Source: Rugamonas rubra (GTDB lineage Bacteria > Pseudomonadota > Gammaproteobacteria > Burkholderiales > Burkholderiaceae_D). Taken from it: DNA of 64,000 bases. This document shows positions 21,656-53,914 of the stretch, in pieces (the stretch's first letter is position 1; each line of letters starts with the position of its first letter). The stretch covers positions 372,001 through 436,000 of the forward strand of contig NZ_FOTW01000004.1 of NCBI RefSeq assembly GCF_900114705.1. The letters run 5' to 3'. A program made the position numbers and the translations under genes. The notes beneath the pieces were generated by a model that saw only the letters and a program-made list of their open reading frames with translations, was not told the DNA's origin and ran no database searches.

Positions 21656-21685
21656 GGGGTCTGACCCCATGCGGGGTCAGACCCC
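21656..21685. repeat. GGGTCAGACCC-family palindrome, copy 1
   Basis: GGGGTCTGACCCC (21656-21668) and GGGGTCAGACCCC (21673-21685) form a perfect inverted repeat with a 4-nt ATGC loop. It sits between the convergent carbonic anhydrase and mutarotase genes. One of five copies of the same core in this window (others at 41500, 48028, 53885 and 61879). Confidence 0.9.
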
Positions 21686-21730
21686 TAGCGTGCGGGGTTC
21701 AAGCCGGCGTTCCGCTCGCTCGCGAGGAAG

Positions 21731-33511: not shown

Positions 33512-33694
33512 ATGGCAAAGACAAATTTCCAGTACGAGAAGCGGCAACGCGAGTTAGAGAAGAAGAAGAAGGCCGACGAAAAAGCCAAGCGCAAGGCAGA
33601 ATTGAAGAACACGCCGGGCGGCGAGGGCGAAGCGGAGCCGGATGAGGCCGACGCTGACGGCGACGCCGCCGAGGGCGAGACGCCGGCGGCATAA
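33512..33694 (+). CDS. Small highly charged protein of unknown function
   Basis: 60 residues. The N-terminal half (MAKTNFQYEKRQRELEKKKK, then further Lys/Glu/Ala) should form a basic helix; the C-terminal half is acidic and Gly/Asp/Glu-rich (about residues 35-57). GAGGT precedes the ATG. Similar short Lys-rich proteins beginning MAKxxFQYEKRQRE are annotated as hypothetical in betaproteobacteria, so it is likely real, but no function can be assigned; nucleic-acid binding is only suggested by its charge. Confidence 0.75.
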   Translation: MAKTNFQYEKRQRELEKKKKADEKAKRKAELKNTPGGEGEAEPDEADADGDAAEGETPAA

Positions 33695-33787: not shown

Positions 33788-33821
33788 AAAATGCCGTTCA
33801 GTTGATGCTGGGCGGCATTTT
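33788..33821. terminator. Probable terminator after the small charged protein
   Basis: AAAATGCCG (33788-33796) pairs with CGGCATTTT (33813-33821), extended by further Ts. The A-rich 5' side would serve the opposite strand too. Confidence 0.6.
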
Positions 33822-33856
33822 TGCTTTTAGGGGAACCTGGTTCAGGAACCGGAACC

Positions 33857-33978
33857 GGGAACCGGGGTCAGGGAACCGGGGTCAGTGCCGACATTCGGAC
33901 ACTGACTCAGCAGTAAAGAAGCTTGGTGGCGTAGGGTCTATGGTTGAGGTCGTGTCCGAATGTCGGCACTGACCCCGG
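33857..33978. mobile_element. MITE/REP-like element with 27-bp perfect terminal inverted repeats
   Basis: Arms at 33876-33902 and 33952-33978 are exact reverse complements over 27 bp (left arm begins CCGGGGTCAGTGCCGACATT). They enclose a 49-bp centre without coding capacity. Directly left is a tandem duplication of GGGAACCGGGGTCA (33857-33870 and 33871-33884). The arms begin with GGGGTCAG, the same half-core as the dispersed palindromes. It lies between convergent genes (small charged protein and RND permease). It looks like a non-autonomous element moved by a transposase elsewhere in the genome. Confidence 0.75.
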
Positions 33979-34012
33979 GGTTCTAGGCTGGATGCAAGCT
34001 TGATGCAGTGCA

Positions 34013-34117: not shown

Positions 34118-37100
34118 TCAGGCCGCGTTGTGCTCCTTGTTGTGCTCCTGCTGCGGCGCGCCGTGGTGCTCGTCGATGCTGGCCACGCCGTGCGGCTCCG
34201 GCGCGCCCTGGAAGAAGCGCTTGGCGCGCTTGCCCAGGCTGTCCAGGTAGGTGTAGGCGACCGGCACCACCACCAGGGTCAGCAGGGTCGAGGTGAGCAC
34301 GCCGCCGATCACGGCGCGGCCCATCGGCGCCTGCGTCTCGCCGCCGTCGCCCATGCCGATGGCCATCGGCAGCATGCCGAACACCATCGCCAGCGTGGTC
34401 ATCAAAATCGGCCGCAGGCGCACCTGGCCGGCCTCCATGATGGCCTCGTACTGGCCCTTGCCGGCGCGCTGGCCGTGGTTGGTGAAGTCGACCAGCAAGA
34501 TGGCGTTCTTGGTCACCAGGCCCATCAGCATGATGAAGCCGATCACCGAGAAGATGTTCAGCGTGCTGCCGGTCACCAGCAGCGCCAGCAGCACGCCGAT
34601 CAGCGACAGCGGCAGCGACACCATGATGGCGATCGGCTGCAGGAAGCTGCCGAACTGCGAGGCCAGCACCAGGTAGATGAAGATCACCGCGATGCCCAGC
34701 GCCATCATGGCGCCCGCCATGGTCTCTTCCATCTGCTGGGCGTTGCCGGCCACGTCGAAGCGCACCCCGGCCGGCAGTTCGATCGACTCCATCGCCTTCT
34801 TGACGTCCTGGTCGACGTCGCCGCCGGGACGGCCCTCGACGCCGGCGTACACCGCGACGCGCCGTTGCAGCGCCTGGCGCTTCAACACCTGCGGGCTCGA
34901 CGAGGGCACGAACTCGACCACCTGGCGCAGCGGCACCATGATCGGCCGGCCGTTGGCGTCGTTGCGGCTGGAGGCCAGCGACAGGTCGGCCAGGTCGGCG
35001 ATCTTCTGCCGGCCCGACTTGGGCAGCTGCACGTTGACGTCGTAGTTCTGGCCGTCGCCGGCCAGCCAGTGGCTCACCGTGTCGCCGGCGACGAAGGGCC
35101 GCAGCGCGCTGCCGATCTGCTGCACCGACAGGCCCAGGTCGCTGGCCAGCTCGTTGTTGAGCTTGATGGTGGTCGACGGGGTGGCGCCCTCCTGGCTGTA
35201 CTCCAGGTCGGCGACGCCCTTGATCTTGCGCATCTTGTCCATCAGCCGGTGGGCCACGTCGTCGAGCTTGCCCTCGTCGACGCCGAGGATGGCGATGAAG
35301 ATCGGCTTCTGGCCGAACGACAGGGTGATGCCGGCGATGGTCGACATGCGCTCGCGGATCAGCTTCTCCAGCTCCTTCTGGGTGCGCCGCTTGTGCAGCT
35401 TGTGGTCGACCAGCTTGAGGTCGATGCGGGCGTGGTTGCGCACGTCGCCCGGCGGGGCGACGACGGCGATCCGGCTGTCGATCTCGGGGAAGGCCTTGAG
35501 CGCCTCCTCGACCTGCAGCACCTTGCTGTTGGTGTATTCCAGGCTGGAGCCGACCGGGGTCTTGAAGGTCAGGTTGATCCAGCCCTCGTCGGTCTCGGGG
35601 AACATCTCGCCGCCGATCATCGGCACCAGCATCAGGCTGCCGACGAACAGGCCGAGCGCCGCCGCCAGGGTGCTCTTGCGCCAGCGCAGGGCCAGCGCCA
35701 GCACCCGGCCGTACCAGACGTGCAGGCGGTCGATGCCGGTCTCGATCCAGGCCATGAAGCGGCCCAGCCACGGCAGGTACTTGAAGCGGTCCTTGACCGG
35801 ATCGCGCCAGACCGAGGAGAGCATCGGGTCGAGCGTGAAGCTGACGAACAGCGAGACCAGCACGGCGACGGCGACGGTGATGCCGAACTGCAGGAAGAAG
35901 CGGCCGATGATGCCCTTCATGAAGGCCACCGGGATGAACACGGCGACGATGGCGAAGGTGGTGGCCATGACGGCCAGGCCGATCTCGTTGGTGCCGTCGT
36001 TGGCCGCCTTGAAGTGGCTCTTGCCCATGCCGAGGTGGCGCACGATGTTCTCGCGCACCACGATGGCGTCGTCGATCAGCAGGCCGATGCACAGCGACAG
36101 CGCCATCAGCGTGAGGAAGTTCAGGGTGAAGCCGAAGAACTTCATGGCGATGAAGCTGGCCATCACCGAGATCGGCAGGGTCAGGCCGGTGATGATGGTG
36201 CTGCGCCAGGAGTGCAGGAAGAAGAAGACGATCACCATGGTCAGCACGGCGCCCTCGACGATGGTGTGCTTGACGTTGTTGAGCTGGTTCTGCACGCGCT
36301 CGGACTCGTCGTCGAGCAGGCGCAGCTTGATGTCGGCCGGCAGCGACTTCTGCAGCTCGCGGGTGATGCGCTGGATGCCGGTGCCGACCTCGACGACGTT
36401 GGCGTCCTGCACCTTGGTGATCTCGATGCTGATGGCGCGCTGGCCGTTCAGGCGCGAGATCGACAGCTCCTCCTGCTCGCCGTCGACCACGCCGGCGACC
36501 TGCTCGAGGTAGACCGGGCCGTTGGCGCGGCGCGCCACGATGATCTTGTTGAAGTCGCGCGCCTGCTTCATCTTGCCCTCGACGCGCACCAGCTGCTCGG
36601 CGGCGCCGAAGCTGATGTTGCCGGCCGGCAGGTTGGTGTTGCTGGCCTGGATGGCGCGGATCACCTCGTCGACGCCGACGCCCTGCGCCGTCATGTCCTC
36701 GGGGCGCAGGCTGATCAGGATCTGCCGCGCGGTGGTGCCGTTCAGCTTGACCTGGCCGACCCCGGCCACGCTCTGGAAGCGCTTGCTGATGATCTGCTCG
36801 GTCATGGTCGACAGCTCGCGCAGGGTGTGCTCGCCGGCGGTCAGGCTGAGGGTGGCGATGGCGCGCTCGTTGTCGCCCTCGGCGCGGGCGATGTAGGGGT
36901 CCTTGGCCTCCTTGGGGAAGCGCGGGCGCACCAGCGCGACCTTGTCGCGCAGCTCCTGCATGGCCTTGTCCATATTGGTCGACAGCTCGAACTCGAGGTA
37001 GATGCCGGCCTTGCCCTCCCACGAGTTGGCGCGGATGGTCTTGATGCCGCTGACCGTGTTGACGACGTCCTCGACCGGCCGGGTGATGTCGTTCTCGACC

Positions 37101-37273
37101 GCCTCGGGCGAGGCGCCCGGGTAGTTGACCTCGATGGCGGCGAAGGGGAAGGTGACGCTGGGCATGCTCTCGACGCCCAGGCCCTGGTAGGAGAACAGGC
37201 CGAGCACGACCAGGGCCACCATCACCATGGTGGCGAAGACCGGATTTTGGATGCTGGTTTTAGTGATCCACAT
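34118..37273 (-). CDS. RND-family efflux transporter permease (HAE1/MdtB-like)
   Basis: 1051 residues with the 12-TM AcrB-type plan: N-terminal helix (FATMVMVALVVLGLFSYQGL), porter domains, LMALSLCIGLLIDDAIVVRENIVRH (the charged TM4 proton-relay region with paired Asp), a second repeat, VSLPLSLIGVLLALLVTGSTLNIFSVIGFIMLMGLVTKNAILLVDF and GRAVIGGVLTSTLLTL. It should pump substrates out in exchange for protons, together with the adaptor encoded 3 bp upstream and a TolC-type channel encoded elsewhere. Substrate unknown. No regulator gene is adjacent. Confidence 0.93.
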   Translation of the reverse strand: MWITKTSIQNPVFATMVMVALVVLGLFSYQGLGVESMPSVTFPFAAIEVNYPGASPEAVENDITRPVEDVVNTVSGIKTIRANSWEGKAGIYLEFELSTNMDKAMQELRDKVALVRPRFPKEAKDPYIARAEGDNERAIATLSLTAGEHTLRELSTMTEQIISKRFQSVAGVGQVKLNGTTARQILISLRPEDMTAQGVGVDEVIRAIQASNTNLPAGNISFGAAEQLVRVEGKMKQARDFNKIIVARRANGPVYLEQVAGVVDGEQEELSISRLNGQRAISIEITKVQDANVVEVGTGIQRITRELQKSLPADIKLRLLDDESERVQNQLNNVKHTIVEGAVLTMVIVFFFLHSWRSTIITGLTLPISVMASFIAMKFFGFTLNFLTLMALSLCIGLLIDDAIVVRENIVRHLGMGKSHFKAANDGTNEIGLAVMATTFAIVAVFIPVAFMKGIIGRFFLQFGITVAVAVLVSLFVSFTLDPMLSSVWRDPVKDRFKYLPWLGRFMAWIETGIDRLHVWYGRVLALALRWRKSTLAAALGLFVGSLMLVPMIGGEMFPETDEGWINLTFKTPVGSSLEYTNSKVLQVEEALKAFPEIDSRIAVVAPPGDVRNHARIDLKLVDHKLHKRRTQKELEKLIRERMSTIAGITLSFGQKPIFIAILGVDEGKLDDVAHRLMDKMRKIKGVADLEYSQEGATPSTTIKLNNELASDLGLSVQQIGSALRPFVAGDTVSHWLAGDGQNYDVNVQLPKSGRQKIADLADLSLASSRNDANGRPIMVPLRQVVEFVPSSSPQVLKRQALQRRVAVYAGVEGRPGGDVDQDVKKAMESIELPAGVRFDVAGNAQQMEETMAGAMMALGIAVIFIYLVLASQFGSFLQPIAIMVSLPLSLIGVLLALLVTGSTLNIFSVIGFIMLMGLVTKNAILLVDFTNHGQRAGKGQYEAIMEAGQVRLRPILMTTLAMVFGMLPMAIGMGDGGETQAPMGRAVIGGVLTSTLLTLVVVPVAYTYLDSLGKRAKRFFQGAPEPHGVASIDEHHGAPQQEHNKEHNAA

Positions 37274-53884: not shown

Positions 53885-53914
53885 GGGGTCAGACCCCGTA
53901 CGGGGTCTGACCCC
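53885..53914. repeat. GGGTCAGACCC-family palindrome, copy 4
   Basis: GGGGTCAGACCCC (53885-53897), loop GTAC, GGGGTCTGACCCC (53902-53914). Perfect inverted repeat between the convergent ABC ATPase and tsaD genes. Confidence 0.9.

Follow-up and report, generated by a model that had tools for sequence, protein, structure and literature searches.

A REPIN-like dimer of terminal inverted repeats in Rugamonas rubra, its probable TIRYT-type transposase, and a flank repeat at its ends

TIRYT transposases and TIRtrons, together with the GGGGWSAS motif and dispersed families of terminal inverted repeats (TIRs) that include dimers, were defined by Di Nocera and coworkers (2013; PMC3733652, accessible portion). 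According to the available text of Quentin et al. (2018; PMC6006769), TIRYT corresponds to subclass 2.1 of the TnpAREP proteins, possesses a C-terminal helix-turn-helix (HTH), and has no REP-like sequence near its genes. The C-terminal HTH of TIRYT is of the HTH_23, HTH_28 or Bac_DnaA_C type. REPIN/RAYT systems, as presented in the available sections of Nunvar et al. (2010; PMC2817692) and Bertels and Rainey (2011; PMC3116915), consist of inverted hairpin doublets and a single cognate transposase gene which has the same flanking repeats. Repeats and protein covary in these systems, and the number of repeats follows the gene; the second of these papers also describes tandem clusters of REPINs that include their flanks. 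E. coli TnpAREP cleaves at C|T and requires the joining strand to carry a 3' C, as reported in the available part of PMC8266576.

The window, which is the whole 64,000-nucleotide stretch of Rugamonas rubra DNA that was analyzed, contains an element of 103 bp (33876-33978) made up of two inverted arms and a centre, and the alignment with full-length relatives from other parts of the genome covers approximately the same stretch (about 100 bp, centre included). Exact comparison bears out the preliminary description of 27-bp perfect inverted arms around 49 bp. The left arm (33876-33902, plus strand) and the right arm (33952-33978, minus strand) are exact reverse complements, their complementarity continues to 34 nt at 91%, and the 49-bp centre (33903-33951) is conserved in part among full-length copies. 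The left arm is the 25-bp arm of the family (33878-33902) preceded by CC, and the C beside the head is common to most copies. Both arms begin with the 8-bp head GGGGTCAG (33878-33885 on the plus strand and 33969-33976 on the minus strand), which fits the GGGGWSAS of TIRYT repeats. When an isolated 25-nt arm is folded, 7 bases are predicted to stay unpaired and nucleotides 8-25 to form a hairpin with a one-base bulge (33885-33902, plus strand, in the left arm). A few weak pairs in the head are predicted if the arm is followed by GAGCTC, as in other copies, and a stem that reaches into the head if it is followed by TGACTC, as in the window copy. The single-strand fold of the element (33876-33978) lies 11 SD below shuffles, and that of the surrounding region (33840-34000) 7.6 SD below. 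Scanning the window for the arm with up to 3 mismatches returned two places only, which are the element's own arms (shuffles 0 in 100), and GGGGTCAG occurs 8 times in the window against 2.87 expected.

The element lies at a convergent junction, as had been proposed, where a 60-codon ORF on the plus strand (33512-33694, read by eye) faces a gene on the minus strand (34118-37273) which we take, by recognition of its function, to be RND-efflux-like. Terminator-like hairpins flank the element, that of the left gene at 33788-33821 on the plus strand and that of the right gene at 34039-34018 on the minus strand. Rfam gave no match on the element and three matches at the right-hand terminator, all far below gathering scores.

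The arm is dispersed throughout the R. rubra genome (6.83 Mb in 82 contigs; G000). Its 25-bp core GGGGTCAGTGCCGACATTCGGACAC was found with up to 3 mismatches at 147 places (76 forward, 71 reverse), and the reversed core, searched at the same threshold, at none. A 116-bp query around the element gave 113 matches; roughly 40 of these run close to full length if both readings of a single site are counted, so the centre is also common to copies. The 240 kb read around listed copies holds 123 arms (up to 5 mismatches), grouped into 57 clusters, and both orientations are present in 51 of these. The plus arm precedes the minus arm in all 51, and the heads therefore point outward; these pairs span 61 to 130 bp, most commonly 97 bp. 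Each of the other 6 clusters consists of one arm, and two of these solitary arms bracket the transposase gene described below. The base just outside the head is C at 51/55 left ends and 48/51 right ends, which recalls the cut of TnpAREP at C|T, although the resemblance is suggestive only. Bulged hairpins in inverted doublets, as in canonical REP/RAYT, and dispersed repeats in dimers or clusters, as in TIRYT/TIRtrons, were both found in the family. We classify the element as a non-autonomous, REPIN-like dimer of TIRs, and its family as a new member of the already known TIRYT/TIRtron kind with an end pattern that was not found described.

A gene with the same ends is present in this genome. Searching it with PF01797 gave five matches, one of which is an intact 286-aa gene on contig C80 (about 113384-114244, minus strand; L035:1000-1860) flanked by exact 25-bp arms (L035 971-995 and 1947-1971) in the same outward arrangement as in the elements. 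No arm was found at up to 5 mismatches in the other four stretches, two of which end at contig ends. Two further Y1 genes without these arms (L033:1195-1866 and L034:1459-2157, encoding 224 and 233 aa) were seen, and the 233-aa protein attains the NCBIfam cut-off for REP-associated transposases. The C80 protein scores 37.1 bits against PF01797 (Y1; cut-off 23) and 73.1 bits against the NCBIfam equivalog for REP-associated tyrosine transposases, below the cut-off of 80. Its C-terminal region matches HTH_Tnp_4 (E 9.2e-5), HTH_28 (0.0031) and HTH_23 (0.019), all below the curated Pfam cut-offs, and the structure model (mean pLDDT 85.8) places helices there at residues 240-249, 255-262 and 266-283. 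The RAYT bound to a REP hairpin in 4er8 matches the protein by sequence (E 4.9e-4) and is also the best fold match of the model (E 1.2e-7, TM 0.74 by target length); 2vju and 2xqc, which are IS200/IS605 proteins of the Y1/HUH fold, are among the fold matches. Residues H60, H62 and Y119 are invariant across 34 aligned relatives. The fold, the putative C-terminal HTH-like region and the GGGGWSAS-type head together place the system with the TIRYT/TIRtron group. Comparison of the gene with that of a sister genome (G051, about 170 contigs), the closest genome found by transposase gene and window locus, gave dN 0.085 and dS 0.61, values which indicate that the gene is under purifying selection.

Matches to the C80 protein at E <= 1e-20 are found in 73/74 genomes of the genus, and the genera in which named relatives of the gene occur include Massilia, Duganella, Pseudoduganella and Undibacterium. 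The arm is present in 33/74 genus genomes (up to 3 mismatches) and in 16/294 family genomes from 4/44 genera (up to 2 mismatches). At 33/49 related transposase loci the arms are paired and inverted and have a G[GT]G..CAG-type head, the conservation of the head being partly a matter of selection because heads were sought by a pattern list. The list revealed no arm pair at the remaining 16/49, some of which carry arms with different heads. C is the base outside the head at 49/58 ends beside related transposase genes. Distance between arms tracks distance between proteins (Mantel r 0.38 and 0.40; 10 and 4 of 5000 permutations, n=29). Ten genomes whose TIRYT arms lie within 3 mismatches hold 12-147 arms against 0-86 in the other 20 (p=6.6e-5), a comparison in which one TIRYT was examined per genome and genomes hold several.

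The sister genome lacks the element at the window site, where it retains the two neighbouring genes with their terminators. An unrelated linker of about 26 bp takes the place of the element, because of which the junction is unreadable to the base. The arm was found in 0/29 flank-matched loci in stretches from other species (the sister genome included; loci were accepted on the flank match, whether or not the efflux-like gene adjoined it). At 26 further sites the element is present in both G000 and G051, which is not a rate of 26/27 filled sites, a reading that was rejected because nearly all sister stretches were chosen for holding arms. Across the 50 ends of these shared sites most arm positions are identical in 92-100% and the less conserved ones in 80-86%, a figure inflated because the sites were found via well-matched arms, and the centre is 44-54% identical at most positions, without gaps. 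The 6-bp flank is identical at 2/50 of the shared ends. Hypermutation of the flank between the sister genomes was considered and dropped, since a dS of 0.61 makes the difference unremarkable. The preliminary description had presented the element as MITE-like and perhaps mobilisable. The recurrence of the arm core in the genome, the transposase gene with the same ends and the empty site in the closest genome found all agree with a dispersed, MITE-like mobile unit; an arm that occurs once only at a locus identical in relatives, which would speak against it, is not what the genomes hold.

A further feature of the family lies outside the arms. Repeats of the local flank together with precisely the 8-bp head extend outward from the element end, a pattern referred to here as flank stutter. 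In the window, the 14-bp direct duplication GGGAACCGGGGTCA that had been noted earlier is present as two exact copies (33857-33870 and 33871-33884) with an 86% copy at 33831, and it is one stutter unit with a prefix length of 8. It comprises an extra head GGGGTCAG outside the left arm (33864-33871, plus strand) and, between this head and the arm, the flank copy GGAACC (33872-33877, plus strand); headless repeats of GGAACC lie farther out on the same strand within 33845-33863 (33845-33850, 33851-33856 and 33858-33863). A target-site duplication was rejected as an explanation of the 14-bp repeat, as left and right flanks match no better than in shuffled pairing (51 left/right pairs, lengths 0/1/2/3 in 40/2/5/4 against 40.2/1.9/5.9/3.1).

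Across the family, the last 5 bp of the flank recur within 100 bp outward at 55/106 ends in G000, compared with 435/1806 random points and 1258/5300 shuffles. The recurring flank is most often followed either by nothing or by the element's initial 8 bp and no more; 38/124 repeats have length 8 and two have length 7 or 9. The flank recurs at 69/95 ends in G051, where 41/141 repeats have length 8, and at 27/93 ends in nine other arm-bearing species, which is near background. Stutter with the 8-bp prefix was found at 25/106 ends in G000, 32/95 in G051 and 2/93 in the nine other species (57/201 against 2/93, p about 1e-8), and is thus mainly a feature of the G000/G051 lineage. These end counts cover the best-matching arms, namely the 123 arms read in G000 (genome total 147 at up to 3 mismatches) and the listed part of 130 arms in G051, with the two clusters that flank the TIRYT gene left aside. 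Within 150 bp outside the elements, GGGGTCAG occurs 62 times in the orientation of the head and 0 times in the opposite one in G000, and 94 and 9 times, respectively, in G051. In arrays directly adjoining the element, 5-8 bp of flank intervene in 24/24 cases (G000) and 28/31 (G051), and this flank fully equals the one before the previous head in 20/24 and 23/31. The junction of fully matched arrays has 0-1 nt of shared sequence in 33/43, a 1-nt match being common, and the end of the unit coincides exactly with the start of the hairpin that the isolated arm forms (nucleotide 8). Longer prefixes, which extend up to about the second arm, account for sites with arms in the order '++-' or '+--'.

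The four bases outside the head are loose in the two genomes with stutter (G000 3.1 bits, G051 2.7) and nearly fixed in three other species (G031, CTTC/GTTC, 5.8 bits; G038, GTTC, 6.1; G050, AACC/CACC, 5.7), that is, 2.7-3.1 against 5.7-6.1 bits. In these three species the four bases are species-specific and equal at both ends although the arm is identical, which hints that they may belong to the recognized end or the cutting site. Loose flanks and stutter co-occur in two sister genomes, which amount to one lineage and are no proof of cause.

Other repeats in the genome touch on the element. The window holds two short palindromes with GGGGTCAG (about 21657-21686 and 53885-53914) from a family with 38 exact genome places of one arrangement (sampled at L268-L291), GGGGTCAGACCCC-N2..8-GGGGTCTGACCCC. 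Flank words such as ACCCCGCA recur beside them, so the family could form the core of some longer repeat. The preliminary description regarded the element as the larger or ancestral form of these palindromes. The shared 8-bp GGGGTCAG start stands and may reflect a common origin of the heads; derivation from the element is not supported, since the palindromes form a separate family without stutter and no copy with both was seen. Among 25 copies, the flank recurs at 8/50 ends, and neither the 8-bp stutter (0/50 ends) nor a head in the flanks was found. None of the Y1 genes inspected in G000 showed the short-palindrome end. A related short palindrome, AGGGTCAGACCCTAGGGTCTGACCCT, adjoins some elements (L097 near 1470; flanks of L027 and L030). 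Finally, TTAAGT(CA)ACGGCATT or its complement adjoins AGGGTCAG heads, several times at contig ends (L099:300-330, near L078 289, L105 1615 and L101 1590; in other species L198, L224 and L261), as if an insertion sequence with this end targeted the head. A 103-aa frame beside it has no Pfam match. Insertion of IS elements into REPs is mentioned in the accessible portion of PMC3733652.

The element is very probably a non-autonomous hairpin moved in trans by a single TIRYT-type Y1/HUH transposase, the one encoded on C80 between the same arms. This reading draws on sequence comparisons, namely copy number, outward dimers, the gene with the same ends, covariation of arm and protein, purifying selection and the unoccupied site in the sister genome. 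The mobile unit would be two REP-like arms, each composed of the 8-bp head GGGGTCAG followed by a bulged hairpin, directed outward around a short centre. By analogy with TnpAREP and IS200/IS605, the enzyme would bind the arm as a single-stranded hairpin, cut beside it, and join a 3' end terminating in C. The flank stutter could be a by-product of this cutting, a proposal we hold tentatively. The enzyme would nick the DNA 5-8 nt beyond the head, a short stretch of displacement synthesis would proceed across flank and head to the foot of the hairpin, and the new end would be re-joined to the covalently held 5' end. Somewhat more speculative is the fuller version, in which the stutter is a genomic record of transposase cutting in the cell, each unit represents one round of nicking, synthesis and re-joining that left the element unmoved, and the TIRYT of this lineage is relaxed for the four bases beside the head.

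Alternatively, the element could be an immobile relic, or a hairpin recruited by the host (e.g., as a roadblock or mRNA 3' end between convergent genes) whose arms are under host selection. This possibility would fit the finding that 29/46 sites with both neighbours called by a simple ORF rule are convergent (p=5.6e-8 against an assumed 25%), and also the conservation of arms at the 26 sites shared with the sister genome despite diverged centres and a dS of 0.61. The arm figure is inflated, however, each of the two genes beside the window element already has its own terminator-like hairpin, the sister genome manages there with no element, and the transposase gene is under purifying selection; we consider this explanation unlikely. 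A MITE of the ordinary type, descended from a TIR-bearing DDE transposon, would likewise be non-coding and present in many copies with perfect TIRs, but the 51 pairs of flanks give no target-site duplication, the transposase found between these ends belongs to the Y1/HUH and not to the DDE class, and the stretches read showed no DDE transposase gene bounded by the arms, which makes such an origin extremely improbable. Movement by the TIRYT-type enzyme is the reading that we prefer for the element.

The origin of the stutter is less certain. At the hairpin, ordinary slippage of replication or a switch of template could produce the repeats with no need of the transposase, and this is nearly as likely as the enzymatic account. 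The repeat ends exactly at the start of the isolated-arm hairpin, a 1-nt match at the junction is common, and the pattern is rare in other species that have the same arm and their own TIRYT, so arm and TIRYT are not sufficient for it. Against slippage, another strong palindrome that starts with the same 8 bp shows no stutter at any of 50 ends, the junctions of most fully matched arrays share only 0-1 nt, and the repeated unit starts 5-8 nt outside the head in 24/24 arrays (G000) and 28/31 (G051). It is very improbable that the stutter is an artefact of draft assembly. Both genomes are in many contigs and runs of N occur in some sister sites, but the regular unit length and breakpoint are flank-specific and found in two separate assemblies, and a similar array (L206) is present in G073, a one-contig assembly.

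The preferred reading, a TIR dimer moved by a TIRYT-type transposase, can be set against the known systems. Like TIRYT/TIRtrons, the family has a RAYT-like gene between long inverted repeats, the GGGGWSAS motif, dispersed dimers or clusters, and possibly a C-terminal HTH-like region; unlike subclass 2.1 in the available text of Quentin et al., its arm folds as a bulged hairpin behind the head. With REPIN/RAYT, as covered by the available sections of the two papers cited above, it shares the inverted hairpin doublets, the cognate single gene with the same flanking repeats, the covariation of repeat and protein, and a repeat number that follows the gene. It differs in having GGGGTCAG as its head instead of the canonical foot GT[AG]G, and in a longer protein with a putative HTH-like region and a score below the NCBIfam cut-off for REP transposases. 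Tandem units are mostly 12-16 bp of flank and head here, compared with whole REPINs in REPIN tandems. The flank stutter is not mentioned in the accessible parts of PMC3733652 and PMC6006769, and no prior description was found among the listed hits of open-licence PMC papers; among titles and abstract starts, no relevant literature on REP repeats in Massilia was found. IS200/IS605 elements (IS608, ISDra2) resemble the system in the Y1/HUH fold of the mover and in hairpin ends with unpaired sequence 5' of the hairpin, but the element here is gene-free, and its two ends carry inverted arms that face outward. It is like MITEs in being small, non-coding, bounded by terminal inverted repeats and present in many copies, and unlike them in its Y1/HUH mover and in lacking a target-site duplication.

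A repeat that was spotted by eye is now tied to its likely mover. TIRYT repeats, which were reported without REP-like structure, can follow the REPIN plan, in which outward-facing arms each combine a short head with a bulged hairpin. Should the enzyme be the source of the stutter, the pattern would provide a readout, from sequence only and open to testing in harmless soil bacteria, of the positions at which a poorly known group of HUH transposases cuts and rejoins DNA in cells.
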